This document shows positions 23,178 to 39,458 of a stretch of 64,000 nt of DNA, piece after piece. The position numbers and the translations under genes were made by a program. Where the stretch lies: the NCBI RefSeq assembly GCF_029589435.1, contig NZ_JARRAG010000001.1:486808-550807 (forward strand), read 5' to 3'. The notes below the pieces were generated by a model that was not told where the DNA came from, searched no databases, and worked only from the letters and a program-made list of their open reading frames with translations. Each line of letters opens with the position of its first letter. Positions within the stretch are counted from its first letter, which is position 1. The stretch is from Paludisphaera mucosa. Lineage in GTDB: Bacteria > Planctomycetota > Planctomycetia > Isosphaerales > Isosphaeraceae.

Positions 23178-23707
23178 CCGTCGCCGGCCTCTCGACGGCC
23201 CGTGGAACGGGGCCGACCAAGGCCATCCGCGAGCCCCCGCAGCCTTGAAAGTCGTCCCGCGAGAGAGGCTTCGACGTCGACGCCCCACGGCCGGGATCGC
23301 GATTCAGTCCGCCTGCCGATTCGCACTGGATTCGCCCCGAATTGTCAAGGAACCCCTAATAACGGGTACGAATAACAGGTAGAGTGTACATCCATTTCGT
23401 AGGGGAGTCCAGTGGCGTCGATCGGCCCCTTCGCGTCCATGCGACGCGGTCAACCGTAGACCCCCGATCCCTCGCAGGGTTTCCCCGGGGGTGGGATGGG
23501 GCGGGCTCCACGCGAACTCGAAGAGTAGCAGGGGGTGCAAGGCTAACTCTGCGAGATGGTTCTCCGCTGTGTGGTGGACCTCGTCCAGGGCCTGCCACCT
23601 CCCGTGAGGGTCGTCCCCCCTGGAGCAGCGGGCCTGGCGAAGCATCCCTACTGAACGATCGATCTCCTTCCCCGCTGCTCCCCCGCTCTCAGGCGATGAC
23701 CGCCCAG
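23178..23707. other. gene-free left end of the element
   Basis: No credible gene in 530 bp. It contains one GTAGCAGGGGGTG repeat (23525-23537) and the start of a longer palindromic copy near 23668. Arm-type binding sites for the recombinase could lie here but none is obvious. Confidence 0.5.
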
Positions 23708-23736
23708 TCAATTCAAGACTGTAGCAGGGAGTAGGC
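23668..23736. repeat. element-specific palindromic repeat, long form (copy A)
   Basis: CCCCGCTGCTCCCCC is followed by an 'AGGCGATGACCGCCC' centre and the inverted arm CTGTAGCAGGGAGT. It is closely similar to 27195-27271, including the centre. It overlaps the last codons and stop of the SWIM-like gene. Confidence 0.75.
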
Positions 23737-23998
23737 CGACCGCCCTCATCGCCCGGATGTGGATGCAGCCGAGGGGGTCCAGCCCCTCCCGCTTCCAGAT
23801 GAAGTCGGGGCAGTCGCAGGTGACCCCGTAGGAGTGTTCGGCGATGTCGTAGATGGGGCCGGAACCACGACGGTTCTTTGCCTTGATCAGACGGAAGGCC
23901 CGAATCAGGTCGGGGTCGTCCGTCCGGATGGGCCTGACTACGTAGCCGGTGCCATCGATAGTGAGAATCAGGGTGAGTCGGGCACGATGGTCTGCCAT
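23708..23998 (-). CDS. SWIM-zinc-finger-like small protein
   Basis: 96 aa. A short beta-rich N-terminal part (LTLILTIDGTGYVVRPI) is followed by 'GVTCDCPDFIW' and, after 13 residues, 'GCIHIRAM'. This is the C-x-C-x(n)-C-x-H spacing of SWIM zinc fingers. Stand-alone small SWIM proteins occur in planctomycete mobile elements and phages and probably bind DNA or protein. It is the first gene inside the left end, reading outward toward attL. Confidence 0.65.
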   Translation of the reverse strand: MADHRARLTLILTIDGTGYVVRPIRTDDPDLIRAFRLIKAKNRRGSGPIYDIAEHSYGVTCDCPDFIWKREGLDPLGCIHIRAMRAVGLLPATVLN

Positions 23999-24339
23999 GA
24001 CTCCAACAAAATAGCCGCCTTGAGCCTTTTGGGTAAGTCAGCTTTCCACTGGTCTTTCGGATCAGCTTTGCGGACAGGCCGGGGCAAGTCTCTAGAGTGT
24101 TGGCGTCTTAATCTGGGAGAATGAACCAAATGCTTAACTTGCGATCAAAGCTCAGCTAAACTTGTTTCGATCGACACGCGTAACTCAACCACGCATCCAC
24201 GCGATTTCCTTCCAAGAAGAGCGTCTCATACGTGTTGAAAAAGCACGGCGAACAGGTTGCTTGTCCCGGAGAGTAATCGGCATGATAGGCGAGGGGCTTC
24301 AGTCGCCTCCTGAAGTCATCAGATGGAGTCGCAAGTCCA
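23999..24339. other. AT-richer intergenic region upstream of the defence pair
   Basis: No gene is seen in 341 bp. GC content falls visibly here and remains low through the next two genes, marking the edge of a foreign segment. No reverse transcriptase or clear retron-like RNA was recognised, although an RNA cannot be excluded. Confidence 0.5.
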
Positions 24340-25854
24340 ATGGCTGTGAGACTGATAAGTGCGAAATTTCAAGGTAGAGACATACCACTATCGATTGACG
24401 GACCCGGAATCGACCCAAAGTCAAACATCTTCACGGTCTTAATAGGTAGGAATGGCGTCGGCAAAAGTCGATTACTAGCTTCCATCTGCGACGCATTCAA
24501 CTGGCCGGCACCAAGCCAACGGCTTAATCCAGGTGGTCCGCCGAAGATTAACAAACGAATCACTATTAGATACATAAAAGACGATCGTGTCATTAGCATT
24601 GACCATAAACGAGTATTGACTGACGCTTCTGGGGGGGTCCTCCGGAAGGAATCGGTGAAATCGGCAAAACCAATGAAAGTTATTGCTACTACCATCACGC
24701 CATTCGACAGATTTCCGATTTTTGAAGTAGATGGTCTTGACCGTGACAATCTTGACCCCAGATTCGATACCAAGGATAACGTATATATTTATCTAGGTGC
24801 AAAAGATAGAAATGGTGGGTTTTCGCCTTTCTATCGGTCCAAACAAATCATCAGATCACTTCTAGGGGTAGCTGCCGCCGCCGATGATCGAAGAGGTGGA
24901 TTGGCACACGTGTTTGATTTGCTGGACTATCATCCAATTGTTCGCCTTAGCTACATGTTTACTGAGATGGAAGAGGAGAGCCGGTCGGCGTATGAGACTC
25001 TCGATACATTTATTTCGAACATGAAGGATAAGAGCGGTAAGCCCAGGCTAGTCGGCAGTAATGTTGGTGAACGCATGGATGATTATATGAATAAATTTCC
25101 CGACAGGGAGGCGGACGTTCGCCTAGCGTGGCATAGCATGTTTGTCGACTCGGCCGCCGGAACCGGGCCGGTTGAACTTGAATATGATTTCAGTAATTCG
25201 AATTTCACGATTGGTTCCGCACTAATGTACGAACAGATTTCTCTATTAGAGGCGGCAGGCATGCGAACGCATTTTGAAGTCGCGTTAAGCAAGCGTCGGC
25301 ATGAGAATAAATACCTGGGTGTCGATGATGCAAGCTCTGGTGAACAGGCAGTCGTGTTGGTAGTCCTTGGCATCGCAAGCCAGATTTCGGACGACAGTTT
25401 GATAATAATTGACGAGCCCGAGATCGGTCTACATCCGGAATGGCAGGCGAGGTATTTGGATTTACTCAACAATACTTTCATGGGTTACAAGGGCTGTCAT
25501 TTTCTCCTGGCCACCCACTCGCCGCAAATCGTAGCTCAGATAAGGGGAAATGGCTTCGTGGTGAGCATGGACGACGTTCCGTCCATTGAATCCTCAAAGG
25601 AGTATTCGAAGAGGTCGGCGGACTTCCAACTCGCCAGGCTGTTCGATGCACCGGGGTTCCGCAATGAATATTTGGCCAGAGAGGCGATGACGGCATTGAT
25701 GCAAATTAATCGCAATCAGAGTGAAACGACGGACTTCGAGTCAAGATTCGAGATACTGAGTAACGTCAGAGGTCTGCTTTCGGACGACGATCCCGTGGCC
25801 GAAATGATAGATGCAGTCACGACCGCTTACGAGCTTCGGAAGGATCGAGGATGA
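24340..25854 (+). CDS. AAA/ABC-type ATPase, PtuA-like (Septu defence)
   Basis: 504 aa ABC/SMC-type ATPase. Walker A is GRNGVGKS near residue 37 ('TVLIGRNGVGKSRLLASI'). An ABC-like signature 'SSGEQAVVLVVLGIA' lies about residue 330, Walker B with catalytic glutamate is 'LIIIDEPEIGLHPEW', and the H-loop is 'FLLATHSPQIV'. The middle part lacks a long coiled coil, unlike SMC or RecN. The gene overlaps the HNH nuclease gene by four bases (ATGA). That pairing is the architecture of Septu (PtuA/PtuB) and of the retron Ec78 effector module. No retron reverse transcriptase is nearby, so a stand-alone Septu-like anti-phage system is the best reading. Codon use is AT-richer than the chromosome. Confidence 0.82.
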   Translation: MAVRLISAKFQGRDIPLSIDGPGIDPKSNIFTVLIGRNGVGKSRLLASICDAFNWPAPSQRLNPGGPPKINKRITIRYIKDDRVISIDHKRVLTDASGGVLRKESVKSAKPMKVIATTITPFDRFPIFEVDGLDRDNLDPRFDTKDNVYIYLGAKDRNGGFSPFYRSKQIIRSLLGVAAAADDRRGGLAHVFDLLDYHPIVRLSYMFTEMEEESRSAYETLDTFISNMKDKSGKPRLVGSNVGERMDDYMNKFPDREADVRLAWHSMFVDSAAGTGPVELEYDFSNSNFTIGSALMYEQISLLEAAGMRTHFEVALSKRRHENKYLGVDDASSGEQAVVLVVLGIASQISDDSLIIIDEPEIGLHPEWQARYLDLLNNTFMGYKGCHFLLATHSPQIVAQIRGNGFVVSMDDVPSIESSKEYSKRSADFQLARLFDAPGFRNEYLAREAMTALMQINRNQSETTDFESRFEILSNVRGLLSDDDPVAEMIDAVTTAYELRKDRG

Positions 25855-26549
25855 CCCCGATAGCTTATCAGGGCGAAGAACGAGCAATCGTCGAGAAGTA
25901 CAACGCCACCCGGCCTCAAGACCCAAGGTTTTGGGACTGCGACGAGGCCAAGCGGGTCAATCAACGCGTTAAGAAGCACTACGTTCAGGAACAGGGGAGG
26001 CTGTGCTGCTACTGCCGAAAGCCGATCGCATCAGGCCATGGAAGGCTATGGGACACAGACCATATTATTCCAAAGTCTAAGCATCCCGAGTTTATGTTTG
26101 AACCAGCGAATCTGGCCATTTCATGCATAGATTGCAATTCTGCCAAGTCGGACAAGCTCGTCACAAAGGAGCCATTCGTTCGGCAATTCCCTAAACACGC
26201 GAGTTTGTATTCGATAGTCCATCCACACTTCGACGACTACGGTGCCCATATATTAATTTACCTAGGCAAAATTTATGCCTCGATTACACCTAAGGGTTCT
26301 TTCACAATTCTGACTTGCAAGCTGGAGAGGTATAACGCCGAGGCTCAGGGTTGGAGGCCCGACTTCATCGATGACGACGCGGGGATTCAGTATCTTAATT
26401 CGATTATGAATGGAGATCCAAAGGAGAAAAATTATGTGTACATGGAGATGCTGCTTCGAGCCGGCATCACAGTCACCGACACATTGGCCGCCAAGATGAA
26501 AAGCGGTCCAACTCCAGGCCAGGCCTCCGCTTCATCACCGAGCAAATAA
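25851..26549 (+). CDS. HNH endonuclease, PtuB-like (Septu defence)
   Basis: 232 aa, coupled to the ATPase gene by an ATGA overlap. The HNH core is clear: two zinc-binding pairs (CCYC near residue 50; 'CIDC' near 98) frame 'WDTDHIIPKSKHP' with the catalytic His and 'EPANLAISCIDCNSAKSDK' with the Asn. The later 'VHPHFDDYGAHI' block is also found in PtuB-like HNH proteins. The N-terminal helical part includes 'KKHYVQEQGRLC', typical of the retron/Septu HNH group. It is expected to cut DNA or tRNA when the ATPase partner is released by a phage trigger. The 3' end overlaps the convergent membrane protein gene by 15 bp. Confidence 0.82.
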   Translation: MTPIAYQGEERAIVEKYNATRPQDPRFWDCDEAKRVNQRVKKHYVQEQGRLCCYCRKPIASGHGRLWDTDHIIPKSKHPEFMFEPANLAISCIDCNSAKSDKLVTKEPFVRQFPKHASLYSIVHPHFDDYGAHILIYLGKIYASITPKGSFTILTCKLERYNAEAQGWRPDFIDDDAGIQYLNSIMNGDPKEKNYVYMEMLLRAGITVTDTLAAKMKSGPTPGQASASSPSK

Positions 26550-27062
26550 TAGATAGAGACCGGCCGTGAGTGCCACCGGCACCAGCACGACCAAGGCACC
26601 GACGCCGTACAACTGCAAGTCGCTGTACCCGCCGTTCTCCTCGATCTTCCCCTTCCGCCTTTCCGCCTTCGCCAGTCGCACCTCCTCGCGAAAGGCATCC
26701 TCGACGACTCTACGTCGGCGAGCCTCCTCCGTTTCCTGGGCCTGCTTTCTGAGCCATTCCTCCCTCGCAGTCCGTTGTCTCGCCTGGCTGTCGGCCACCT
26801 CGGACTTCGAGGTCAGGTCGAGCAAGGGTCTGCCTGTCATCAGACTAGCCCCGCATGCCCGGCAGTTCGGGCGGGAAGCCTTCAGGGAGATTTGTCGGCC
26901 GCACTGGGGGCAGCAGGGAACCCCGTTCTTCCTGATGAATTGCTTGGAGGGTTGGAACAAGTAGATCAGGAGGACGACCGCGATCCCGAGCAGGGTCAGG
27001 ACGGCCTCAATGCCCGACGGATCTTGTTTGTGTCTAGCGGCGAACAGGATGAAGTCGACCAT
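26535..27062 (-). CDS. membrane protein with zinc ribbon and charged coiled coil
   Basis: 175 aa. A first membrane helix (VLTLLGIAVVLLIYLF, about 21-36) precedes a zinc ribbon (CCPQCGRQ ... CRACGAS). A highly charged predicted coiled coil follows (about 90-140; EEWLRKQAQETEEARRRR), then a second membrane helix at the C-terminus (GVGALVVLVPVALTAGLYLLF). No family is recognised. It is convergent with the HNH gene, which it overlaps slightly. A membrane accessory to defence is possible but unproven. Confidence 0.65.
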   Translation of the reverse strand: MVDFILFAARHKQDPSGIEAVLTLLGIAVVLLIYLFQPSKQFIRKNGVPCCPQCGRQISLKASRPNCRACGASLMTGRPLLDLTSKSEVADSQARQRTAREEWLRKQAQETEEARRRRVVEDAFREEVRLAKAERRKGKIEENGGYSDLQLYGVGALVVLVPVALTAGLYLLFAR

Positions 27063-27475
27063 CGGTCATGTCCACGAAGACCACAGTCAAGCAACCATGC
27101 CCTCTTCTATCACATCCAGTCCTTCTGTAAACGGAAAACCCAGCCTCCCACGAAGGAGAAGTCGGGCGGCCAAGCATGGGTTTTTGGAGAGACTTCCCTG
27201 CTACTCCCCCTCTCCCAGGCGACGACCGCCCGGTCCGATCGATTCAATGCGAATACTGTAGCAGGGGGTGGTGAAGGGATTCACCTCAACTCATGTGCGT
27301 TGCACCCACGGGTCGACCCGGACGCCCATGAGAAGGTCGCCCGCCGTCGTATTGACGTCGGTCGCCTAGTGGACGCCCAGCAGCGGAGGATTCTCGGGTG
27401 CGACCGGCTGCGTCCTGTCCGTCAGGTGTACTCCCAGTTCCGTCTTCATTCCAGCGATGCTAGCCTACAGGCCTT
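27063..27475. other. intergenic region with long-form repeat
   Basis: No convincing gene in 413 bp. It includes the long palindromic repeat at 27195-27271. An open stretch after it has no start codon with a ribosome site. Confidence 0.5.
27195..27271. repeat. element-specific palindromic repeat, long form (copy B)
   Basis: CCCTGCTACTCCCCC is followed by a CAGGCGACGACCGCCC centre and the inverted arm CTGTAGCAGGGGGTGG. Arms and centre match copy A at 23668-23736. Confidence 0.8.
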
Positions 27476-27673
27476 CTACGGGGTATAGAGCTGGACCAAC
27501 ATGTTGTCACGTCCCACGGATTTGGTGAGCGGCTTATTGTCGCCGAATTCAGTGGCCTGGAGGACTACCTCGGCGTCGAATTCTTCGGCCAGCATCTTGA
27601 AGAAATCCACCGTTAGCAGCCGGTCGGTCCGTCGATACGAATGAGCAGCAAGGACGTGATGCGTCCAGTGCAT
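27476..27673 (-). CDS. hypothetical protein, 65 aa
   Basis: A short frame reading 'MHWTHHVLAAHSYRRTDR' then 'VDFFKMLAEEFDAEVVLQAT'. It has an ordinary amino-acid balance and an AT-rich, promoter-like region directly upstream. No family is recognised and no strong ribosome site is seen. It may be the remnant of a larger gene. Confidence 0.35.
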   Translation of the reverse strand: MHWTHHVLAAHSYRRTDRLLTVDFFKMLAEEFDAEVVLQATEFGDNKPLTKSVGRDNMLVQLYTP

Positions 27674-28020
27674 GATGTCAAAATTATCGACTTATTGGTC
27701 TTTTAAGACCGAAATCTGAGAACCGATTATATGAATTGAACAAAATCGAGCACGATATAATTTATCTATATTCTCTATTTGCCTCGTCTTTACATTTACT
27801 CAACGGTTTATAAGCGTCATATTATACGGCCTTAACTAAATTAGTGGCGACGATCTATGGTTCCAATTCTACGCAAGCGAGTCCCTTAATCTCTCACTTA
27901 ATCTATGTTTCATATTTTCTTAGTTAAACGAGGCGATTTACTTGAGTTAGATCACCTAAAGTACCTAAGTATCGCATTTTGACAAATCTTTTTCCAGCAG
28001 GCTCGGTTTTAAATGCATGA
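27674..28020. other. strongly AT-rich island within the element
   Basis: About 350 bp of low-GC DNA in a GC-rich genome, with no gene. It holds a perfect 14-bp palindrome GGTCTTTTAAGACC (about 27700) and many TATA-like stretches. Possible roles are a promoter cluster, a silencing (H-NS-like) target or a DNA-unwinding element. Confidence 0.6.
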
Positions 28021-29302
28021 CCTGCGATAGTAAATCGCACTCGTGCCACCACCTAAGGATCATAAAAACCCCCCGCCTTCAGGCTGGTTCTCCGCGTCGT
28101 CAGAAGAACGACGGCTCCAAACTTGATGCAGTCGAGGCCCCCGTACCTCGTTCACCAGGATGCGATGGCTACGAGACCGGAATCGCCCCAATAGTGGAGG
28201 TATCCGGTTACCAAGTCCTGACATGTCATTTGATCGTTCTCATGTCTTCGGCAGGATCTCGCGGGTCCGCGAAGGCGAGGTTCGCTCACCGTGGATAATG
28301 CTTCATCGATCCTCCTGAAGTCCAACATATCAGCCCTCCTTGGTCGGGGACCTCAAAGGCAACCTGACGCTCACCCGTTCGCCCAACTCGTCCTGTCCTG
28401 CTGCACGCCGGGGCGACGCACTCGGTGCGGATTGGTGGCAGGACCACCCAACTCCCAGGTTCACCCGGACCGGCACTCCCATTGGTCATGAAGAGGAGCA
28501 GGGGGTAAGGGACGCGGAGGACTTCGCGGGCAAGGGCTCCTACCCCTATCGACCCCTTTGCTCGCCGGTGAAGTAGGCCTCCGCCCAACCGACAACGTCC
28601 GGGGAGGGCGTGTCGGCCGATCGTTCGTGGATCGGGTCGTTATATAGTCATTCCACCACCAGGTCACCCGGGGGTATTCAAGGCCGTCGCGATCCTCCAC
28701 GTCTGGTTGAGACGCAGTCTACCGCCGCCCACACCAACCAAGTCCGACAGATATGGAGCCAGGACATGGCATTCGAGGAGTAGAAGGCCGCCGAAATCGA
28801 ACGAGGCATGTCAACGACCTCAATGGACCGCCCGACGTAGCCCAAGGCCAAGCGGAAGCCAAAGACTCCCTATAACTTCACGCCCCAAGACTTTTCCGCC
28901 TCGAAGTACGGGATCGACTCTGCCCCCTGGAGGGCGGCGTCCGCTGGCTAATCTCCACCTGTTACTTCAATTGAGTCGCCGTGTTGTGGGGATTGGTAGA
29001 GAACGGGAACCAGGTCGTCATCGGCCCTGGTCGGTCGTCCCCCGTCTGATCCTCGACCCCCTGCTACAGCCTTTGGAGCGAATGCCCCGGCCCTTCCTCC
29101 GAGTCGGGTCGACGACATTCGCAAAAATTCGTTCAACTCGTGATGCGGCCGTTCTACAACAACCTGGCGGTCGGACCTCTCCAACTCATTCGGTTCGCCG
29201 GGTACGGCGACCAAGACCGTAGCAGGGGGGTGGGAAGGGAAGAATCCCCGACGGTGTACCCGTAGATGTGCGAACCAATATCTCCCCATCGGAGACGCCG
29301 TC
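28021..29302. other. degenerate region without intact genes
   Basis: About 1.3 kb in which all frames are broken or lack plausible starts. It contains a recognisable polymerase gene fragment (28842-28995) and repeats near 29057-29069 and 29219-29234. It looks like decayed element DNA. Confidence 0.55.
28842..28995 (+). pseudogene. remnant of a second polymerase gene, 5' part
   Basis: Nucleotides 28926-28990 are clearly similar to 29673-29738 in the intact polymerase gene. In the matching frame they read 'GGVRWLISTCYFN', a stop, then 'VAVLWG', versus 'DGVRWLISTCYFYEVAVWRG' in the intact gene. Upstream, 'KRKPKTPYNFTP' parallels 'KKKRLPYIYEP', but a frameshift separates the two pieces. It is a decayed paralogue, not a functional gene. 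Confidence 0.75.
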
Positions 29303-29377
29303 ATGGGCTGGATCGACATCATCGGATTTCCGTTCTTCGCAGTCGTCCTCTGGATCGACGGCCGCCGCAACCGTTGA
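29303..29377 (+). CDS. 24-aa hydrophobic peptide at head of replication operon
   Basis: An ATG with GGAG 8 bp upstream opens a 24-codon frame reading 'MGWIDIIGFPFFAVVLWIDG' and a basic end (RRNR). It is one membrane helix with a positive tail. The CsrA-like gene starts 17 bp after its stop. It could be a real small membrane protein or a leader peptide that controls the genes below. Confidence 0.45.
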   Translation: MGWIDIIGFPFFAVVLWIDGRRNR

Positions 29378-29394
29378 ATCACACAGGAGATATC

Positions 29395-29565
29395 ATGCTC
29401 AAGCTTTATCGAGGGACCGGCCAGATAATCAACCTGTACCTCCCGGACGGCCGGATGGTCGTCCTTGAGGTCGGCGAGCTTCGTCGGAACACCGTTGAAT
29501 TATGGATGGCCGCTCCCCCTGACGTCCGCTTCGAAAAGGGCGAGACAGACCCCGCCCGCAATTGA
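29395..29565 (+). CDS. CsrA-like small RNA-binding protein
   Basis: 56 aa; ATG 29395 has AGGAG (29385-29389) upstream, which rules out the longer open frame. The sequence follows the CsrA/RsmA pattern: 'MLKLYRGTGQII' parallels CsrA 'MLILTRRVGETL' with Leu2, Leu4, Arg6 and Gly9 kept. 'RNTVELWMAAPPDV' parallels 'GNQVRIGVNAPKEV' with the Ala-Pro pair kept. The second RNA-binding arginine (CsrA Arg44) appears replaced by Lys in 'RFEKGE'. It probably folds as the CsrA strand-swapped dimer and may control translation of the element's genes. It sits 28 bp before the polymerase gene. Confidence 0.65.
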   Translation: MLKLYRGTGQIINLYLPDGRMVVLEVGELRRNTVELWMAAPPDVRFEKGETDPARN

Positions 29566-29593
29566 GTTGAAAACAACCACAGGAGCCTATGCC

Positions 29594-30802
29594 ATGATCG
29601 CGAAGAAGAAGAGACTTCCTTACATCTACGAGCCCGTCGGCTACGACGACTTCGAGATTCCTCCGGAGAACAAGGATGGGGTCCGGTGGCTGATCTCCAC
29701 CTGCTACTTCTATGAGGTCGCCGTGTGGCGGGGGGACGACGAGGATCGCTGGGCCTACCTGTCGGCCGGCTTGCTGGGCAAGGTGGTCGGGCGGAACATC
29801 AAGCCCATACGCGACGCCGCCGTCCGGGCGGGGCTTATCGAATGCGACAACCACTACATCGTGGGGTCGAAGCCCATGGGATATCGCCTCGGAGCTTCCC
29901 TCGACGGGGCCCAGTGGCGGAGATGGTCCGGCGACGGGCAGATGTTCCTCAACCGCTACAAGAAGTTCAAGGCCCATTGGAACACCACGAAAGATCTCGA
30001 CGACCTCGGACTCTACATGCGGAGGTGGATCATGAAGGCCAAGTTCGGGGCGGGGCTGAAAGCGGTCCTGGCGGGGATGCCGGACGGCAAGAAGCGTGAC
30101 CTCGCCCTGAGGCAGGTCGAATTGATCAAGGCCGGGATCATCAAGACGAAGTATTGCGACTTCGGCCGTTTCCATTCGAACATGACCCGCATGTGCTCGG
30201 AAATCCGGGCGTTGCTGGAAATCGACGGCGAACCTCTCGTAGAGATCGACATCGTATCCAGCCAGGTCTTGTTCTTGGCGGACCTCCTGAAATCCAACGG
30301 CCTGGAATATTCTCCTTCTTCTCACTCATTTCCATCCTCTTCTTCTCTCTCCTATCCCTCTCTCCCTTATGATCGCAGTATTCATGACGAGTTCTTCGTA
30401 GACCTAGAAGGGGGAAGGACTTACGAACGATTTATGCGTCATTTCGACTACCCCTCCCGATCGGAGACGAAAGATGAGTTCTTCGGCGTGATCTATGGGG
30501 GGATGAGACGGACCAAGCTCCTCGCCCAGGTCTGGCCGAAAGCCGCCGCCGTCCTCCAGCGGATCAAGCGAGCCAATCCCTTCGGCTGGATTCCCCAGGA
30601 GATGCAGAGGCGTGAATCCCATCGCATCCTTCGGGGAGCCGTGGATCATTTGAGACTCAACCACCCCGAGATCCCGATCATCACCGTCCACGACTCGATC
30701 ATGACCACGCAGCGTCACGTCGAGACCGTCAAGGCCGCCCTGCTCGACGCCTTCTCGGATTTCCCGTTCACCCCTCGTTTACGAATCAAGGAGGCCGCAT
30801 GA
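29594..30802 (+). CDS. minimal family-A DNA polymerase-like replication protein
   Basis: 402 aa; ATG 29594 is 8 bp after AGGAG. The N-terminal about 100 residues look like a winged-helix region (LSAGLLGKVVGRNIKPIRDA ... LIECDNHYIVG). The rest carries the three palm/finger motifs of Pol I-type enzymes. Motif A is 'EIDIVSSQ' (Asp219). Motif B is 'RSETKDEFFGVIYGG', whose R289-K293-F297-Y301-G302 spacing equals that of the E. coli Pol I O-helix (R754, K758, F762, Y766, G767). Motif C is 'TVHDS' (His366-Asp367). No 3'-5' exonuclease or 5' nuclease domain is present, and it is far shorter than Pol I. A Ser/Pro/Tyr-rich insert encoded by a polypyrimidine tract lies between motifs A and B. With the neighbouring iterons it is the likely replication protein of the element. 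Confidence 0.8.
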   Translation: MIAKKKRLPYIYEPVGYDDFEIPPENKDGVRWLISTCYFYEVAVWRGDDEDRWAYLSAGLLGKVVGRNIKPIRDAAVRAGLIECDNHYIVGSKPMGYRLGASLDGAQWRRWSGDGQMFLNRYKKFKAHWNTTKDLDDLGLYMRRWIMKAKFGAGLKAVLAGMPDGKKRDLALRQVELIKAGIIKTKYCDFGRFHSNMTRMCSEIRALLEIDGEPLVEIDIVSSQVLFLADLLKSNGLEYSPSSHSFPSSSSLSYPSLPYDRSIHDEFFVDLEGGRTYERFMRHFDYPSRSETKDEFFGVIYGGMRRTKLLAQVWPKAAAVLQRIKRANPFGWIPQEMQRRESHRILRGAVDHLRLNHPEIPIITVHDSIMTTQRHVETVKAALLDAFSDFPFTPRLRIKEAA

Positions 30803-30972
30803 ACAACAAGAAGAAGATCGCCGCCGTGTACGCCATCTACGCTGAAATCCGCCGCAGGCACCCTGGAGAGCCCGTGGGTGAGCATTGGGAGGGGAGAGGT
30901 GCATACCTGGGGGAGGGAGTTTACGCCGATCCTGAGTGGTGTGGGGTGCCCGGCGAGCTTGAGTTCGCATGA
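30799..30972 (+). CDS. 57-aa protein overlapping the polymerase gene
   Basis: Starts within the polymerase stop (ATGA at 30799-30802), so it is translationally coupled. It reads 'MNNKKKIAAVYAIYAEIRRR' and then an acidic, aromatic C-terminal half ending 'VPGELEFA'. No family is recognised. Its position suggests a replication accessory. Confidence 0.55.
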   Translation: MNNKKKIAAVYAIYAEIRRRHPGEPVGEHWEGRGAYLGEGVYADPEWCGVPGELEFA

Positions 30973-31275
30973 GGGGGGGCTGGGAGGCCCCAGGACGCAC
31001 GCACAGCGTCGGCGGTGGGGATTTCCTGCTCGGGCCGTTGGCGTGCCGAGGGCGATGCCAGGGCCGTCAGGCGGGCGATGGCGAATAAATACTGTAGCAG
31101 GGAGGTGGGGATGAGGTCGGCCGACGCACAACTTTGACAACCGACGGCCGACACGCCATAGAATGCCATCTCATGTATTTCGCCCCCTCCCTGCTTAAGT
31201 ACCCGCCGTACGGTGTCGCCGTACTCCGACGCGGTGGGGCCTTGTCCAGCCTGCGTGGCTTGCCTAATGTGAAGC
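30973..31275. other. intergenic region before the iterons
   Basis: No gene. It holds a CTGTAGCAGGGAGGTGGGG repeat (31092-31110) and a possible promoter, TTGACA at 31134-31139 and TAGAAT at 31159-31164, with a long 19-bp spacer, pointing into the iteron array. Confidence 0.45.
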
Positions 31276-31428
31276 CCCATGCAAGACGTCTCACTTCCTA
31301 TGCATGATGACTCAACTTCCTATGCGTGACGCCCACTTTCCTATGCTTGATGACTCAAGTCGCCCCTATGTCTGGTGACGCATCCCCTATGCTTGATGAC
31401 ACAGATCCCTATGCGAAACATCACGCCG
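31276..31428. repeat. iteron-like array, putative replication origin
   Basis: Seven direct repeats begin at about 31276, 31297, 31319, 31340, 31365, 31386 and 31408. The core is CCTATGC followed in the best copies by (a/t)TGATGAC(t/a)CA; the first copy begins CCCATGC. Spacings are 21, 22, 21, 25, 21 and 22 bp, about two helical turns, which places bound proteins on one face of the DNA. This is the arrangement of plasmid iterons. The array lies about 300 bp downstream of the polymerase operon. Confidence 0.75.
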
Positions 31429-31572
31429 GTGCTTTCTTAGAGTAGGCACGAGACATCCCGAGTACGGGAGGCTGGGCTCCACTTTGAAGCAACCTCCTAC
31501 CCCTGTTTCCATCCGTTGAACGTCGTAGAATGGGTCGAGTCACGCACGCAACCACGCCGCTGGAGTCCTTCG

Positions 31573-32460
31573 ATGCTCCCTGCCCTACTAGCCGTCTCAA
31601 TGCTCGCCCAATCGGGAGATCCGGTGCCCGGGAACTCGATGTATATCCCGAGACTCGGCGAGAAGGCGATCATGTACCGCTATGATCCTCTGGGCGAAGA
31701 GTCCGGAAACCCATATATAGCTTTCGTCGACTTGAATGCATTGATCGAATTCGAGGACAAGCGGAAGGCGTACGCCGACGAGCACATGCACCTGATGTTC
31801 GACAAGAAGTCGGACGTCGAGTTGCGGAAGCTCCTCAAGCCGTACGAAGCCACGAAACAAGTCGTTTACCTCAAGCCCAAGACAGGAGTGGAGATTCTTG
31901 GGTACGGTAATTTCGACAAGACGGGGGAGGGATTGAGACCCAAGGTGAACTTCGTCTATTTCCCGAACCCCAGCGACTACTTAGTCAAGGTCTTGGACGG
32001 CCAGTACAAGGACAGGATCGTATGGGTGCACGCCTCCTCGGTTAGGGTACCCGATTCCAAGCCGTTCGTCCCATTCCCGGCGATCGAGGCCGCCAAGGCC
32101 GATGGCGAGGAGTTATTCGGCAGCAAGCTGAAGAAGCCCGCCGATGACGAAGCCGCCCAGGACAAGATCACGCTGATCGACACCGACTGGGAACTGGACG
32201 ACGGCTACACGAAGGTCCACGCACGGGTGAAGAACACCACGGATCGCAAGATCACCTTCCTCAGGGCCACCGCGACCTTCGAGGATGCGAAGAATCGGTT
32301 GGTGAGGACCGAGTTCACATATGGGAACCCGAGCACCCTGGAACCGGGCGACGTCGCCACCTTCGAGATCTCGACCAAGGCCGACGAACGGATCGACCAT
32401 TACGGATTGAAGTTCGAGTCCAAGGACAAGAACATCCCGTTCAACCGCCCGAGGAAGTGA
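31573..32460 (+). CDS. secreted protein with FxLYD-like C-terminal domain
   Basis: 295 aa from ATG 31573, which has GGAG 7 bp upstream and begins a short signal peptide (MLPALLAVSMLAQSGD); the open frame extends 19 codons further without a ribosome site. The central region is unassigned. The C-terminal about 95 residues (KITLIDTDWELDDGYTKVHA ... NTTDRKITFLRATATFEDAK) look like an FxLYD/DUF3426-type immunoglobulin-like domain found in secreted proteins. It is the first of four cargo genes on the plus strand. Confidence 0.6.
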   Translation: MLPALLAVSMLAQSGDPVPGNSMYIPRLGEKAIMYRYDPLGEESGNPYIAFVDLNALIEFEDKRKAYADEHMHLMFDKKSDVELRKLLKPYEATKQVVYLKPKTGVEILGYGNFDKTGEGLRPKVNFVYFPNPSDYLVKVLDGQYKDRIVWVHASSVRVPDSKPFVPFPAIEAAKADGEELFGSKLKKPADDEAAQDKITLIDTDWELDDGYTKVHARVKNTTDRKITFLRATATFEDAKNRLVRTEFTYGNPSTLEPGDVATFEISTKADERIDHYGLKFESKDKNIPFNRPRK

Positions 32461-32548
32461 GGGAGGTCGACGCTCGGGGTAGTTTCCGCCGCCGAAGACC
32501 GCGATCGCGGGCCATTGCTTCGTCGAGCAGTGGGCCCTGGTCGTCGAC

Positions 32549-32746
32549 ATGCTGGGAGGGTGGGGGCATCCGGCCGTGAGGTTGGTGTCCGAGGACGACG
32601 AGGTCGTTCTCAGCCCCGTGAACGAGGGCGTTGTTCAATGGTGGAGGGTGTCGACGAACAGCGAAGCGGCCGAAGTCTCGAGGCCCGACCTTCGCTCGGC
32701 GTTGGAAGTCGCTGAGACTCTGAGGGCATCTGGAGCCCCCTTTTAA
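32549..32746 (+). CDS. possible small protein, 65 aa
   Basis: The frame reads 'MLGGWGHPAVRLVSEDDEVV', then 'VVQWWRVSTN' and a helical end 'LRSALEVAETLRASG'. Its composition looks protein-like and it fits the gap between two genes. No ribosome site is seen and the open frame extends upstream without a start, so it may be the tail of a lost gene. Confidence 0.35.
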   Translation: MLGGWGHPAVRLVSEDDEVVLSPVNEGVVQWWRVSTNSEAAEVSRPDLRSALEVAETLRASGAPF

Positions 32747-32784
32747 CCTCCGCCTTGAACTCCACACTCCATGGAGGTGACGTC

Positions 32785-33651
32785 GTGACAGAACAACTCT
32801 CACCCCTGGACATCTCCCATGATGAGATGCGAAGCATCGTGTTGGAGACGCTCGATCATAGGAAGAACACACCTGCTGCGGACATGCAGGTTGGCCCGCT
32901 GTCTGAGTGGATCGCCACCATCGCGGCGAAGCGTCATTTCAAGATCGATCCGGTGAAAGAACCGGACAGATGGAACGAGTTCTGGAGGACGACGTATGTG
33001 CTCGACCCCCATGACATCGTGCGGGTGCAAGACGTCCTGTGGGACTTGATAGTGGAAGGGATCATCAGGCCGGGATACGCCCTGCTACCCGCCTCAACCT
33101 GGCCGCACATCCACCTGACCGACAAGGGGAGGGAGCGAGTCCAGGTGAGGGACTTCTCGCCCTACGATCCCGACGGCTATTTCGGGAGGCTCAGTAAGGC
33201 CATGCCCGACCTGGACGAGGTCGTCGTGACATACCTTCGAGAGTGCCTGGTCACCTTCCGGGCCGGCTGCTTCCTGTCATCCACCGTCACCCTGGGATGT
33301 GCCTCCGAGCGTGCGTTTCTCCTGCTCGTCGACGCCTACGCTGACTCGCTCGACGAGGAGAAGAAGATCCAGTTCAAGCGGGATACCGATGGTCGTCCGA
33401 TCAAGCGGGTGCGTGACGAGTTCATGAGGGGGTTCGACGGACGAGTCCGGCCGAGGCTCTCCGGCGACCTAAAGGACCACCTCGACGTCACGTTGGACGG
33501 CGTCTTCACGCTGCTCCGCACGATGAGGAATGAAGCCGGCCACCCGACGGGGAGATCCTGCCCGGAGGAGGAGATACACGCCTCTATTATCCTCTTCCCC
33601 ACATACTTGAAGAAGATATACGCCCTCATCGCACACTTGAAGTCTCCTTGA
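32785..33651 (+). CDS. hypothetical protein with C-terminal HEPN-type motif
   Basis: 288 aa from GTG 32785, chosen because GGAGGTGA lies just upstream. The N-terminal third includes a possible winged-helix segment (DVLWDLIVEGIIRPGY ... HIHLTDKGRERV). The C-terminal part is helical and contains 'TMRNEAGHPTG', an R-x4-H motif (R-N-E-A-G-H) as in HEPN ribonucleases, preceded by a long helix. HEPN proteins of mobile elements often act as toxins or in abortive infection. No cognate MNT antitoxin gene is visible next to it. Confidence 0.55.
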   Translation: MTEQLSPLDISHDEMRSIVLETLDHRKNTPAADMQVGPLSEWIATIAAKRHFKIDPVKEPDRWNEFWRTTYVLDPHDIVRVQDVLWDLIVEGIIRPGYALLPASTWPHIHLTDKGRERVQVRDFSPYDPDGYFGRLSKAMPDLDEVVVTYLRECLVTFRAGCFLSSTVTLGCASERAFLLLVDAYADSLDEEKKIQFKRDTDGRPIKRVRDEFMRGFDGRVRPRLSGDLKDHLDVTLDGVFTLLRTMRNEAGHPTGRSCPEEEIHASIILFPTYLKKIYALIAHLKSP

Positions 33652-33676
33652 TCCGAGGGGGTAGGGCTTGTACACT
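33648..33676 (+). promoter_or_regulatory. probable sigma70 promoter for the 33715 gene
   Basis: TTGATC (33648-33653), a 17-bp spacer and TACACT (33671-33676) overlap the end of the previous gene. The start codon of the next gene lies 38 bp further on. Confidence 0.5.
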
Positions 33677-33714
33677 ATCGAGGTGCGTGCACCCACCCTA
33701 CGAGAGATTCAGCC

Positions 33715-34584
33715 ATGCTTTCGCTCGTATTCTCCGTCGCACTGATGGGCCAGGTCGGCGATTACGCCGTGCGATACGACGAGGTCCGCGACGCCACGGC
33801 GGAGTCGCTCGACGTGAGGGGCGTACACTATGGAAACGAGAACGACTTGCAGATCGGGCTGTCGTTCCACCGCTACTACCGGGGACGCTCGCGGCCGCCC
33901 CTCCGGGACGAGGACGACGTCGACTTCATGGTGTTCTCGCGGTCGACGACGTGGCAATTCCTCAAGTTCAACGACGCCGCCCTCCTGTACGACGACGTCC
34001 GGATGCCCCTCAGGGCGACCGACAAGGACCAGGAGGTCGTGAACGGGGGCGTCAGCGAGATCTTCGTGTACCGGATGACGCTCGGGCGGCTCAAGGAGAT
34101 AGCCGCCTCCAGGACCGTCAAGCTCGCGATCGGGACGACGTCGTTCACGATCCCGGAGGCTTCCAAGGCCCTGCTCCGCGAATACCTCGACCATCTCGGG
34201 GTGTCGTCGGAGGCCGCGAGGGCGTTGGAGGAGCGGAAGGCCAGGGCGAAGGCGGAGATGCGGGCCGAGGAGGAGCGGCGGCGTGACGAGCAGGTCCGGG
34301 CCCAACGCGAGGCGGCCCGCCGGCTGGCGGAGGCCGACAGGGAGGAGGCCCGACGGCAGGTCGAGGCCGAAGAGGCGGAGGTCCGACGGCGGGCCGAGGC
34401 CGAGAAGGCGAAGCACGACGACGACGCCGCCCGCAAGGACATCGCGATGGCCGAGCGATTCATCAAGATCAAGAAGCCGAAGGCGGCTGAGGAATACCTC
34501 AAGAAGGCCCTCGATCGGAAGCCCTCGGACGAAGTCCGAAAGAAGGCCGAGGAGCTATCCAAGAAGATCAGCCAACAGAAATAA
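33715..34584 (+). CDS. secreted or anchored protein with long charged coiled coil
   Basis: 289 aa. A short hydrophobic start (MLSLVFSVALMGQVGD) suggests export. A beta-rich domain (about 20-150) precedes a very long Glu/Arg/Ala-rich coiled coil (about 165-245; EERKARAKAEMRAEEERRRD), resembling TolA-type stalks. A TPR-like tail (AERFIKIKKPKAAEEYLKKA) follows. No family is recognised. The next gene begins 9 bp downstream. Confidence 0.6.
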   Translation: MLSLVFSVALMGQVGDYAVRYDEVRDATAESLDVRGVHYGNENDLQIGLSFHRYYRGRSRPPLRDEDDVDFMVFSRSTTWQFLKFNDAALLYDDVRMPLRATDKDQEVVNGGVSEIFVYRMTLGRLKEIAASRTVKLAIGTTSFTIPEASKALLREYLDHLGVSSEAARALEERKARAKAEMRAEEERRRDEQVRAQREAARRLAEADREEARRQVEAEEAEVRRRAEAEKAKHDDDAARKDIAMAERFIKIKKPKAAEEYLKKALDRKPSDEVRKKAEELSKKISQQK

Positions 34585-34593
34585 CACCATGCG

Positions 34594-35193
34594 ATGAGGC
34601 GGCTCGTGGACGACAACAGTCTTGTCAGGATCGCGAAGAAGCGAACCGTCGTAACCTACGTGGAGTTCTGGGGGGTTTCCCGCTTCCTACTCCAAGAGGG
34701 GGTCGAGCGCGAGGAAGGCAGCCTCCTCAACTTCATGGCGAGCCTCACGTACACCGCGTTCAGCTTCGAAGCGTGCTTGAACCACGTCGGCCAGGAGATC
34801 TTCCCCGATCTAGCATGGAAGGCGATCGAGCGACTGAGCCCCAGATCCAAGCTTGAAGTGATCGCCGAGAAGCTGGAACTCAAGCTGGATTTCGGTCGCA
34901 AGCCGTGGAGCGTGATGATCGACCTTTTCAGGTTCAGGGACCAGATCGCCCACGGCAAGTCGGAGATCCTGGAGGATACGAGCGAGGTGCCCCTCGTCGA
35001 CCACCAGGAGCATGCTTGGACGTTCACGCCTGCGAAATGGGAGAAGTACCGCACGCGAGAGCACGCCGAGGATGCGAGGGCCCAGGTCGAGGAGATGGTG
35101 AAGCTGATCCATGAGAAGTGGGGCCACCCCCACCACTTCCCGTTCGTCGGTGGATTTCAGATAGCGAGCGTGACGCAGGTTCCAACTACTTGA
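34594..35193 (+). CDS. HEPN-type helical protein
   Basis: 199 aa, mostly helical. The key motif is 'FRFRDQIAHGKSE', where R-D-Q-I-A-H is an R-x4-H HEPN signature and 'AHGK' is typical of the family's RiboL-PSP/MAE_28990-like branch. An upstream helix (FMASLTYTAFSFEACLNHVG) fits the first HEPN helices, where a bulky-residue-E pattern is common. A role as RNase or sensor in stress or defence is plausible. It begins 9 bp after the coiled-coil gene. Confidence 0.6.
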   Translation: MRRLVDDNSLVRIAKKRTVVTYVEFWGVSRFLLQEGVEREEGSLLNFMASLTYTAFSFEACLNHVGQEIFPDLAWKAIERLSPRSKLEVIAEKLELKLDFGRKPWSVMIDLFRFRDQIAHGKSEILEDTSEVPLVDHQEHAWTFTPAKWEKYRTREHAEDARAQVEEMVKLIHEKWGHPHHFPFVGGFQIASVTQVPTT

Positions 35194-35290
35194 GAGATGA
35201 GAGTTGACCTGCACCACGACAGGAACCAGGAGGGGAGTAGCAGGGAAGGTAGAGGGGCCACCTCTCCATATCGTCTGAGGACATATTCGG

Positions 35291-36031
35291 GTGTTACTAA
35301 CCTCGAGATGGGTGCGTCGGGTCGGGGTCTGGTCGATCTCCATCCTGGTGGGGACGACCTCCATCCTTCATCCCGCAGAGACCTGGATCTTCGCCAGCAC
35401 CGCACTCGGCGAGGCCGCCCGCTTCGTAACCGCGAACGCATGGCCCTTGATCGCCGTGTGGTTGATCTGGACCTTCAAGGATGAGTTGCAGTCCATCCTG
35501 AAGCGTGTCGAGTCGGGAGATCTGGGAGGGGTGAAGTTCAAGGTGAGGGAGGTCGTCGAGGAAGCCGAGAAGGCGACCCAGGAAGCCCGAGATGCGACGG
35601 ACGAACTCAGGAAGTTGGCCGTAACCATCTCGATCCCGCTCGCCACGGTCATCTCGAAGCAAGGGAATCCACGCGATCACATGAATCTGATCCTGAAGAT
35701 GGAGTTCATCCACAGGCTCCAGCACTTCCTACGAAGCCTCAACGCCACGGAGGAGCAGATCGCGGCGGCCGGCGGCAGCGTGCTGGCGGAAGCCATCTAC
35801 AGGCACGCCAACGCCGTGTTCAACGTGTTGGCCGCAGTGAACGCCGCGAAGTCCGAGATGATCTTGAAGTCCAGGGATGATCGGGGCGGGGTCTGGGATC
35901 GGGCGAGGTTCGAGCGGTTCATCACCGAGAACACCCTGGAGACTGGCGACGAGGTCGACGCCGCCCTGCTGGATCTGGAGCATGTCATGGCCAACGGCAC
36001 GCTTCGACGACCGGAGAAGTGGCAATTCTGA
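35291..36031 (+). CDS. membrane-anchored coiled-coil protein of unknown function
   Basis: 246 aa. Two N-terminal hydrophobic segments (VGVWSISILVGTTSIL; ANAWPLIAVWLIWTF) precede a heptad-rich linker (about 70-105; VREVVEEAEKATQEARDATD). A helical cytoplasmic domain follows (LNATEEQIAAAGGSVLAEAI). No family is recognised. A hairpin made from the element-specific repeat follows at 36034-36080. Confidence 0.6.
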   Translation: MLLTSRWVRRVGVWSISILVGTTSILHPAETWIFASTALGEAARFVTANAWPLIAVWLIWTFKDELQSILKRVESGDLGGVKFKVREVVEEAEKATQEARDATDELRKLAVTISIPLATVISKQGNPRDHMNLILKMEFIHRLQHFLRSLNATEEQIAAAGGSVLAEAIYRHANAVFNVLAAVNAAKSEMILKSRDDRGGVWDRARFERFITENTLETGDEVDAALLDLEHVMANGTLRRPEKWQF

Positions 36032-36033
36032 GG

Positions 36034-36080
36034 CTGTAGCAGGGAGTGGGATGTCTCCTCACCTTCCCTGCTACTCCCCC
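36034..36080. terminator. repeat-derived hairpin between convergent genes
   Basis: GTAGCAGGGA (36036-36045) pairs perfectly with TCCCTGCTAC (36065-36074) across a 19-nt loop. No T-run follows on either strand, so a terminator role is inferred only from its place between convergent genes. Confidence 0.45.
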
Positions 36081-36138
36081 TCGGCGAACTGGGTGATTCG
36101 GATCGGCTCCCCTCGCCCGCACGTGCTTGCGGAGGGAG

Positions 36139-37224
36139 TTATTCCGAGAAGCGGGTGAACGATCCTCCAGCATAGCGATATAAGCCCGTGTTCCGGGTCC
36201 CCACCCAGATGTCGCCGTCACGGTCTTCGAACATGCACCAGACCCCATACTTCCCCGGACCCTCCTTCGCGGAGAAGTTCCGGAACGACTTCCCGTCGTA
36301 TCGCCATATGCCCGTGCTGTTTCCCAGGCCATCCTCGCCTTCCACGCCGCTGAACCAGACGTTCCCCGATCGGTCCACCAGCAGGGGCATGCCGAGCCCC
36401 TCCTGTTCCAAGCAGCGGGAGAACGTCTTTCCATCGTATCGCCATACCCCCTTGTGCCGGGTGCCCAACCAGAGGTCCCCCTTGGGATCTTCGACCACGG
36501 TTCGAATCCACTCCTCTCCCCCGGGGTTGAAGCGGGTGAGCGAGGTTCCATCGAAACGGCACAGGCCCTCCCGCCCGGGAGGCATCCCGGAGGCGAGCCA
36601 GAGAATCCCTCGCCGGTCTTCCAGGATGTCGTCCACCATCTTCAGATGCAGCCCGCTCGGGTTCCGGACCTGGCCCTTCTCCAGGAAGGGGACGATCACT
36701 TCCCCCTCGCAGCGGAACACGCCCTCGCTCGTGCCGAACCAGATGGTCCCTTTCCGGTCCTCCAGCATGCTCCACACGGTCTGTGCGGCGAGGGCCTGCT
36801 TTGGGGAGGCCGTTGCGGAACCGGACGATTCCGAGGCGGGGGGGATGGGGACGCTGCGGATGCCCTTGCCGTCCCACCGAGAAAGGCCGGAGTCCGTCCC
36901 GAACCAGATCCTACCTTTCTTGTCCTCCAGGATGGACCATACGATGTTGCTGTTCAGCCCATCCTCGACGGTGTACTGAGTAAAGCCTTTTCCATCGTAG
37001 CGATACACGCCTTCGCCGGTCGTGCCGAACCAGTGGTTCCCGACCCCATCCTGGAGCCCGCATCGGACTTGCATGTATTCCGTGCCGCCTTGCGTCCTGG
37101 TCAGCTTCGGCTTGCTGGCACGCGGGGTGACGCCGAGATCCTGCACCGTCGCCCTCACGCCCCCGCTGGAGTTGGTGAGCAGCAACGCAGTGAACGCCAG
37201 GCAGAGCGTCGGAACATTCTTCAT
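36139..37224 (-). CDS. secreted two-component-regulator-propeller protein
   Basis: 361 aa with a signal peptide (VPTLCLAFTALLLTNSS). The protein consists of tandem Reg_prop-type blades, e.g. 'VWSILEDKKGRIWFGTDSGL', 'SRWDGKGI', 'GVYRYDGKGFTQYT'. About eight to nine blades are visible. These usually form the periplasmic sensor half of hybrid two-component systems, yet here no membrane helix, kinase or HTH follows. It therefore works as a free sensor or binding propeller, or is a domain captured by the element. It is convergent with the previous gene. Confidence 0.8.
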   Translation of the reverse strand: MKNVPTLCLAFTALLLTNSSGGVRATVQDLGVTPRASKPKLTRTQGGTEYMQVRCGLQDGVGNHWFGTTGEGVYRYDGKGFTQYTVEDGLNSNIVWSILEDKKGRIWFGTDSGLSRWDGKGIRSVPIPPASESSGSATASPKQALAAQTVWSMLEDRKGTIWFGTSEGVFRCEGEVIVPFLEKGQVRNPSGLHLKMVDDILEDRRGILWLASGMPPGREGLCRFDGTSLTRFNPGGEEWIRTVVEDPKGDLWLGTRHKGVWRYDGKTFSRCLEQEGLGMPLLVDRSGNVWFSGVEGEDGLGNSTGIWRYDGKSFRNFSAKEGPGKYGVWCMFEDRDGDIWVGTRNTGLYRYAGGSFTRFSE

Positions 37225-37817
37225 GGAGGATTCCGTCGAGGATTCGGGGGCACGGGGCTCTGTAAACGTGATGTGGAGAGGGTGGGGGCGACGGTTTGCG
37301 GATTCGTCCTGAGCACTCCGCCTGGCACGATCCTGACTTGAAAGGGGCTGCGGCCTGACGCCCCGAGCGGAGCTGGCCTACGATGACATCCTGGCATCCG
37401 AGGCCCGCCCCGTGCCAGTGACTCGCCTTCCCGGTCTTGAAATCGCCCGGCATGGTCCGGCTCCTCCATCGGACGTCCGGCCCGGAATAAGAGGAGCAGG
37501 GAGGGGTCTTCAAATAGTCGGCCTCGGGTCTCCGCGATTCGTTCGAATTCGTCCAATAATGATCTGACATCACCCTTCCGGAAGACCTCTTCAAATCTTA
37601 ACTTGCCACCGACTTCCCGAATCGATACAAGTGAAGTACCGCCCCTCCGGTCTCGTCCGGCCGCTCCCTCTCCAGGAGCACGACGTCCCCCCGTCGAGGG
37701 AGTCCACAATGATCATCTTCGCGATCACCGTTCTCCGCTATCGGCTCAGAAGAAGACGAGACCGCAAGTCCTGAGCAGGACGAATCAAGAGCGGCGGGAA
37801 GGCTGACAGTGGAGCCC
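37225..37817. other. intergenic region with weak coding signs
   Basis: No firm gene in 593 bp. On the minus strand, about 37490-37660 reads like protein ('VGGKLRFEEVFRKGDVRSLL', 'DEFERIAETRGRLFEDPS'), then meets a GAGCAGGGAGGGG repeat variant (about 37491) and loses character, as if a gene were truncated there. On the plus strand a 21-codon frame at 37709-37774 (MIIFAITVLRYRLRRRRDRKS) has a GGGAG upstream. Confidence 0.4.
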
Positions 37818-38072
37818 TCACCACCCTCTGGTGCTGATCACGCCGACGAAATCGAGTCCTCGCTCCTCGCACATCGCAAAAATTTTGAGGGCGTCGTCGG
37901 ACTCGCAGTACGCCCAGAAGACGCCGCCGTTTCGATGGGTCTGAACCCGGCATAAAACCGGAGATCGTTGGTCGGCGGGTGGAAGAAATCCTTGGCTCGC
38001 GATCTCGTCCAGGTCGATGAGGCCGATGTCCTTGATCTTGAGCAAGGCCCCGAGCGACTTGAGTTGAGTCAT
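37818..38072 (-). CDS. hypothetical protein, 84 aa
   Basis: Reads 'MTQLKSLGALLKIKDIGLID' then 'RVQTHRNGGVFWAYCESDDA' and 'CEERGLDFVGVISTRGW'. The composition is that of a small alpha/beta domain. GAGAGG lies a few bases upstream of the start at 38072. No family is recognised. Confidence 0.5.
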   Translation of the reverse strand: MTQLKSLGALLKIKDIGLIDLDEIASQGFLPPADQRSPVLCRVQTHRNGGVFWAYCESDDALKIFAMCEERGLDFVGVISTRGW

Positions 38073-39373: not shown

Positions 39374-39458
39374 GGCGACCCCCTAGAGAGGGGGCGAATC
39401 AGGTACGATATCGGGTATAAGTGGTGGTTGATGTGGGGAAAACCGCCGGAAAACCGCG

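Follow-up and report, generated by a model that had tools for sequence, protein, structure and literature searches.

The window analysed here, a stretch of 64,000 nucleotides of the Paludisphaera mucosa genome, encodes a 402-aa protein that almost certainly has the fold of a family-A DNA polymerase. It is cautiously favoured here as an initiator-polymerase, the replication protein of the 16.3-kb integrative element that surrounds its gene (Table 1). The family of this mini-polymerase is widespread and nearly unlabelled; giant phages carry members of it, as do islands of a similar kind. Pfam and NCBIfam contain no model of the family and PHROGs lists it without a name, and the analysis now supplies a fold, a likely role and a genomic context for it. 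Mobile-element family-A polymerases as a kind are already known (TV-Pol 2008, CcPol 2020, divPolA2 2024); new are the resemblance of the N-terminal domain to initiators, a genome-unique array of repeats, a set of delimited elements that carry defence genes, and the occurrence of the family in giant phages. If the initiator-polymerase reading is true, it would represent a new way to start DNA replication, and the protein, as a minimal enzyme for strand synthesis, would be of practical interest.

Table 1. Features of the mini-polymerase gene and of the surrounding island (positions in the window).
Feature	Position	Strand	Details and basis
Mini family-A polymerase gene	29594..30802	+	402 aa; motifs, predicted fold, profile comparison, conservation
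Likely ribosome-binding site AGGAG	29581..29585	+	8 nt 5' of ATG 29594 (sequence)
N-terminal domain, residues 1-118, predicted winged-helix, RepA_N-initiator-like	29594..29947	+	AlphaFold, Foldseek, VIA
GRxHxNxT beta-hairpin with R192	30164..30187	+	R in 47/47 relatives
Motif A EIDIVSSQVL, residues 217-226, including D219 and Q224	30242..30271	+	conservation
Motif B / O-helix RSETKDEFFGVIYG, residues 289-302	30458..30499	+	sequence, AlphaFold, conservation
Motif C TVHDS, residues 364-368	30683..30697	+	sequence, AlphaFold, conservation
Iteron-like array, candidate origin	31276..31422	+	seven direct repeats, CCTATGCNTGATGAC-like; spacing 21, 22, 21, 25, 21, 22 bp
attL, 90-bp repeat	23088..23177	+	last 90 bp of CDS 21993-23177
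attR, identical 90-bp repeat	39459..39548	+	adjoins integrase gene
Body of integrated element	23178..39458	.	flanking repeats, GC
Tyrosine integrase (PF00589), 365 aa	38276..39373	-	E 7e-18
Septu PtuA ATPase, cargo	24340..25854	+	PADLOC 2.6e-101
Septu PtuB HNH nuclease, cargo	25851..26549	+	PADLOC 2.4e-61

Sequence motifs and predicted fold of the mini-polymerase

The preliminary description, made from the sequence, had proposed a very small family-A polymerase with Pol I spacing in motif B, an unusual motif A and neither exonuclease domain, and these readings were borne out. The translation of 29594-30802 agrees with a length of 402 aa, motif B is spaced exactly as in Pol I (R289-x3-K293-x3-F297-x3-Y301-G302), motif C reads V365-H366-D367-S368, and exonuclease domains are absent, residues 1-118 forming a separate small domain. 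The motif A described as atypical indeed reads D219-I-V-S-S-Q224; judging from the aligned relatives, it is a conserved signature of the family, DIxNSQP, a point that the earlier description overlooked. The reading frame stays open upstream of ATG 29594 as far as TTG 29465, and a longer form starting upstream of this ATG is possible but less likely. No model in Pfam, NCBIfam or PADLOC matched the protein, its sole match in PHROGs was phrog_4756 (function unknown, E 2e-4), and sequence searches of the PDB returned nothing useful. The gene is present as a single copy in the 8.2-Mb host genome, which carries PF00476 Pol I-type genes at other loci. The main Pol I-like gene of the host lies at C1:1241759, and three further PF00476 loci were located at G000:C2:1732040, 2482182 and 4579288.

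Conservation was assessed in 47 divergent relatives, most of which were 15-30% identical. Four residues were invariant (47/47), namely, R192 in the hairpin before motif A, D219 in motif A, E341 after the fingers and D367 in motif C. K293, Y277 and P315 were kept in 46 of the 47 relatives, Q224, P225 and Q338 in 44, H366 in 42 and R289 in 40. The motif match is not due to chance because it is conserved across relatives of such divergence. Q224 occupies sequence position D+5, the slot of the steric-gate residue Glu710 of Pol I (placed by spacing rather than by superposition), and the steric-gate role of Glu710 is cited in PMC7581432. With a near-invariant Gln replacing the steric-gate Glu, the sugar selectivity of the enzyme is directly testable.

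An AlphaFold2 model of the 402-aa protein, built from an alignment with 37 relatives (37 rows), had a mean pLDDT of 82, and exceeded 90 over most of residues 280-400. The best Foldseek rows were family-A DNA polymerases (probability 1.00, with an E-value of merely 4e-5), and whole-chain TM-scores were low because the N-terminal part differs. The superposition on the Klenow fragment that had been proposed earlier was obtained: the predicted fold superposes on the Klenow, Taq and T7 polymerases. In VIA-align 2, comparison with the Pol I, Taq, Pol theta and T7 DNA polymerases gave Z 14-16 at about 3.0-3.7 Å; the alignments covered 234-246 residues and ran from model residue ~130 to 402. Individual Z values were 15.9 for apPOL, 14.4 for Klenow and 14.9 for T7 DNAP (238-244 residues), and the closest viral model was a 403-aa "putative DNA polymerase I" of an uncultured marine phage (TM 0.71). 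In the predicted fold, Asp219, Lys293, Tyr301 and Asp367 do not appear to lie far apart, as read from the secondary structure, the aligner printing no residue pairs: D219 ends the predicted strand 213-220, K293 and Y301 share one O-like helix (289-301), and D367 falls between strands 363-365 and 368-372 in a strand-turn-strand arrangement. The C-terminal two thirds of the protein is therefore strongly predicted to be a minimal family-A polymerase with palm, fingers and a short thumb, in which the catalytic residues are complete and a nuclease is lacking. The hallmarks of the family-A superfamily were all present (motif A Asp, motif B R-x3-K and motif C Asp). On the other hand, the protein falls outside Pol I proper (PF00476, PolA1-3), as there was no Pfam match in 37 family members (PF00476 and RepA_N both absent), the N-terminal domain is winged-helix-like and there is no exonuclease. 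In its main text, a 2026 survey of bacterial polymerases distinguishes the groups PolA1, PolA2 and PolA3, together with a minor group resembling PolA1 (PMC12926913).

Two alternatives bear on the catalytic core itself. The protein could be an RNA primase or an RNA polymerase of the single-subunit type, since T7 RNA polymerase likewise has HDS in motif C, the steric-gate Glu is replaced, by sequence position, by Gln, and an RNA polymerase role has been suggested for the phage variant divPolA2 (PMC11348598). This is considered quite improbable: the profile comparison with T7 RNAP gave 0.5% (from a single-sequence profile and hence weak), and the best 50 VIA structure matches were DNA polymerases throughout, with no RNA polymerase among them, an absence that would still be compatible with an RNA polymerase. 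An inactive polymerase-like scaffold or regulator, for which the loss of catalytic residues in some mobile-element Pol homologues would be a precedent (PMC10061031), is the least credible of the readings weighed here, because both catalytic Asp residues and the template Arg are conserved in all 47 relatives.

The island, its repeat array and the N-terminal domain

The mini-polymerase gene lies within an island bounded by a perfect 90-bp direct repeat that occurs only twice in the genome. GC content is about 0.42-0.65 across most of the island, compared with 0.65-0.74 in the left flank, and the tyrosine integrase gene at the right end is located 7.5 kb from the polymerase gene. The proposal of a divergent family-A branch tied to mobile elements is thus supported by the predicted fold and by an island that has 90-bp repeats and a tyrosine integrase. 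Within the window, neither an SSB-like partner nor a helicase partner was recognised. The anti-phage Septu pair (24340-26549) appears complete, and its GC3 of 0.51-0.58 differs from that of the polymerase gene (0.78) and the integrase gene (0.92); Septu may therefore have joined the element later. A row of ORFs at 31516-35193 (starting at 31516, 32755, 33715 and 34594; 199-314 aa each), which had no Pfam match, is possibly further cargo. The island also contains an ORF at 36139-37224 (-) whose product has propeller repeats of the two-component regulator type (PF07494, E 9e-32).

Between the end of the polymerase gene (30802) and the next ORF (31516), seven direct repeats were identified, starting at 31276, 31297, 31319, 31340, 31365, 31386 and 31408 (units of ~21 bp). 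The sequence CCTATGCNTGATGAC is exact in three of the seven; outside the array, the whole genome contains no perfect copy and one copy with a single mismatch, and none of the shuffles of the window attained the observed repeat count. Units of about 21 bp, which correspond to two helical turns, are typical of initiator-bound iterons. The array resembles an iteron origin, and its recognition by the mini-polymerase is inferred. A second repeat, CTGTAGCAGGG, is less likely to represent iterons, as its copies are dispersed at gene borders across 12 kb. Its five copies in the 8.2-Mb genome are all within the island (23719, 27256, 29059 on the minus strand, 31092 and 36034) and lie near the borders of gene blocks, and CCCTGCTAC counterparts occur at 27196, 36066 and 38271; CTGTAGCAGGG and CCCTGCTAC are perhaps cassette ends or regulatory sites.

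Residues 1-118 were also modelled alone by AlphaFold (33 rows, pLDDT 79). The first six Foldseek rows were chains of 5kbj, 4pql and 4pt7 (probability 0.89-0.99, E 0.02-0.08), and in VIA the entries 4pql (Z 8.5), 4pt7 (8.2), 5kbj (7.6) and 4pta (6.6) ranked first, followed by MarR/ArsR-type winged helices at Z about 6. These four entries, whose titles refer to an initiator or a Rep-DNA complex, are RepA_N plasmid initiators. A Z of about 8 is near the stated background of the tool, yet the four best entries share one functional family. The predicted N-terminal domain thus resembles the origin-binding winged-helix domains of RepA_N plasmid initiators, a likeness that is suggestive and not proof; HMM search against Pfam did not recover RepA_N similarity in the family. 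RepA_N initiators likewise have direct repeats beside the gene; they differ in having no polymerase domain and no sequence-level match to the mini-polymerase.

In the favoured initiator-polymerase reading, the element would excise, and the N-terminal domain would bind the seven ~21-bp repeats at 31276-31422 and so position the polymerase at the array. The polymerase would then prime or extend DNA, copying the circular element ahead of reintegration, with helicase, clamp and main polymerase supplied by the cell and with defence genes, in this case Septu, riding as cargo. A bolder form of this reading is put forward only tentatively. It holds that one protein combines a plasmid-type origin-binding domain with a minimal family-A polymerase, recognises iterons and starts synthesis with no other initiator or primase; together with the tyrosine integrase, it would constitute the whole mobility core of unnamed 6-17-kb defence-carrying integrative elements, a family-A counterpart of pipolins. 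Pipolins are self-synthesising elements with a primer-independent PolB (PMC7385651, PMC9710591). They resemble the present island in being integrative elements with a tyrosine recombinase and their own polymerase, whereas their polymerase is the family-B piPolB and the fold and motifs found here are those of family A; the life style is similar and the families are separate.

Relatives in other elements and on a plasmid

Relatives of the mini-polymerase were found by tblastn on one Hymenobacter plasmid and in phages whose records measure 595-735 kb, and a single-sequence search of IMG/VR with the window protein (P0001) gave no matches. Since an alignment of nine members was too diverse for scanning, sub-alignments were used, and these recovered two overlapping sets of viral loci, numbering 68 and 53, as well as bacterial contigs of Chlorobiota, Prevotella and Hanstruepera. 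In profile searches, members were present in 4 of 392 Planctomycetota genomes and in 16 of 395 genomes of the phylum Bacteroidota, a sporadic distribution that fits mobile genes, as expected. In the phylogenetic tree, element and phage members were interleaved, with seven changes, at least three of which were forced. No direction of transfer is claimed because the deep forks were weak and P0001 formed a long branch.

Five more elements of 6-17 kb were delimited, each with tRNA-overlapping repeats, an integrase and a mini-polymerase: L131 from Chlorobiota (6.0 kb, tRNA-Arg), L132 from Prevotella (11.9 kb, tRNA-Asp), L135 from a planctomycete (6.4 kb, tRNA-Leu), L165 (10.8 kb, tRNA-Arg) and L176 (17.0 kb, tRNA-Asn). 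A tyrosine integrase was located within 6 kb of the polymerase in 11 of 25 bacterial loci, or in 12 loci when the integrase of the window, at 7.5 kb, is added, which is a count and not a tested enrichment. In L133, from which no repeats were delimited, the integrase and polymerase are 472 bp apart and a type III restriction-modification system is nearby. Other restriction-type neighbours include a type II pair (L165), a type I system (L177) and a methyltransferase (L176), and a weak ZorA match (Zorya-like) was found among the neighbours in L135. The mini-polymerase offers a marker gene by which integrative elements that transfer Septu, restriction-modification and Zorya-like genes between Bacteroidota, Chlorobiota and Planctomycetota can be found, and through it these elements are connected with giant phages. 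The elements L131 and L135 contained no further recognisable replication gene, and no convincing iteron array was observed around the polymerase in L131, L132, L133 or L135. An HTH_17-like gene is located immediately 5' of the polymerase in several loci.

In some Bacteroidota elements, genes for an AAA_24 ATPase and/or DUF3871 adjoin the polymerase (L165, 7149-9006; L132, 9341-10387; L167, 11622-13521) and are possibly replication helpers. Two loci (L168:5068-8872 and L179:1795-6860) have in common a pair of large proteins near the mini-polymerase (283/992 and 402/1278 aa), which is a candidate defence system of a new type; PADLOC gave no match for the 992-aa protein of this pair. The Hymenobacter plasmid NZ_CP060788.1 (L136) has a separate annotated replication initiation gene, and the mini-polymerase is thus unsupported as its sole initiator. 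Of the two ParA-like genes on the plasmid, one is 1.6 kb away from the mini-polymerase and the other is next to the separate initiator; the plasmid is perhaps a fusion of two replicons.

Relation to known polymerases and occurrence in giant phages

The closest known systems are divPolA2, TV-Pol and CcPol. Profile comparison gave 98.1% (E 1e-13) for divPolA2 over nearly the full length (hhalign columns 72-421 to 80-422 of about 430), 60% (E 9e-5) for PolA over palm and fingers, and a weak 44% (E 2e-4) for the probable TV-Pol of Ma-LMM01 (MAP_030, a guessed gene choice), whereas reversed and shuffled controls did not exceed 0.3% (E 0.2 or worse). Because of these scores, the mini-polymerase family is placed as a putative sister to divPolA2 in a branch that resembles the TV-Pols. 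divPolA2, a PolA variant of phages, has an N-terminal domain that resembles no known one (PMC11348598, Virol J 2024). It shares with the mini-polymerase a small size (about 430 aa), an intact palm, the lack of an exonuclease, an own N-terminal domain replacing the normal thumb, occurrence in phages alongside another polymerase, and homology across the palm and N-terminal domain. In its representative AUR84708, D-F-K-A-F-E and F-D-E stand where the mini-polymerase family has DIxNSQP and HDS, and the matches of this sequence were confined to phages of a few gammaproteobacterial genera, among them Vibrio, Rheinheimera and Aeromonas, whereas the mini-polymerase family is hosted by giant phages and by integrative elements of Planctomycetota, Bacteroidota and Chlorobiota.

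The TV-Pols, which occur in mobile elements that have integrases and restriction islands, are family-A polymerases in minimal form, for which both priming and polymerising have been predicted (Iyer, Abhiman and Aravind 2008, PMC2579912). The likeness includes a family-A core of 400-600 aa without nucleases, the invariant template Arg in a beta-hairpin, the two Asp residues and RxxxK fingers, a location in mobile elements with an integrase or resolvase near restriction systems, and hosts among Bacteroidetes and planctomycetes. In contrast, no D5-type helicase was recognised in the delimited mini-polymerase elements examined, the N-terminal domain is predicted to be winged-helix and not all-helical, and columns 272-279 read G-x-x-Y without the conserved fingers Asp that precedes RxxxK in TV-Pols. 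The mini-polymerase is not filed as a TV-Pol because this Asp is missing.

CcPol, a family-A polymerase of SCCmec, primes DNA solely when bound to its partner MP (PMC7581432, PMC10061031), and PolA-SSB pairs extend this type in Bacillota (PMC10061031), the phylum from which both have been described. These are also mobile-element family-A polymerases with reduced N-terminal parts and with recombinase and restriction genes nearby. Unlike the mini-polymerase, they keep the 3'-5' exonuclease fold partly or wholly, and CcPol has been shown to keep Glu710; an SSB partner and a helicase gene accompany them. A plain primase-polymerase of the CcPol kind would make DNA primers with the help of a partner, while the origin would be found by another factor and not by the N-terminal domain. 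The small ORFs 5' of the polymerase gene in several elements would suit such a partner, but they are of HTH_17 type or unassigned, and a candidate OB-fold protein is absent from those assigned. Furthermore, the N-terminal domain is predicted to be initiator-like rather than an exonuclease remnant, and the helicase gene of all Rice 2023 examples was unseen in the 6-kb elements, none being recognised by reading in L131 and L135. This explanation is accordingly regarded as unlikely, though the most serious of the rivals.

The mini-polymerase is conserved in phages up to 735 kb, where its neighbours are conserved genes of unknown role and a glycosyltransferase-like gene, with no recognisable replication genes among them. 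PolB-type matches (PF00136) were found in 10 of 11 phage records tested, and the eleventh, LR756511, had PolIII alpha instead; the mini-polymerase is therefore rejected as the main replicase of giant phages, and in large phages it is probably auxiliary to a separate main polymerase. Such an arrangement would suit an auxiliary repair or gap-filling polymerase that is cargo and not the replication protein of the element, and a repair role was proposed for the cousin divPolA2 by its authors (PMC11348598). Yet the polymerase recurs with the integrase across unrelated elements while the cargo varies, and the iteron-like array adjoins its gene, so that this role is considered improbable for the integrative elements. 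In LR756511, a second Pol I-like gene (L005:6008-7294, 428 aa; PF00476, E 1e-20) lies directly downstream of the mini-polymerase and overlaps its stop codon. The PolB-like matches of L191 (LR756502) and L194 (an IMG/VR phage) contain in-frame TAG or TAA, which may reflect recoding, introns or sequence error.
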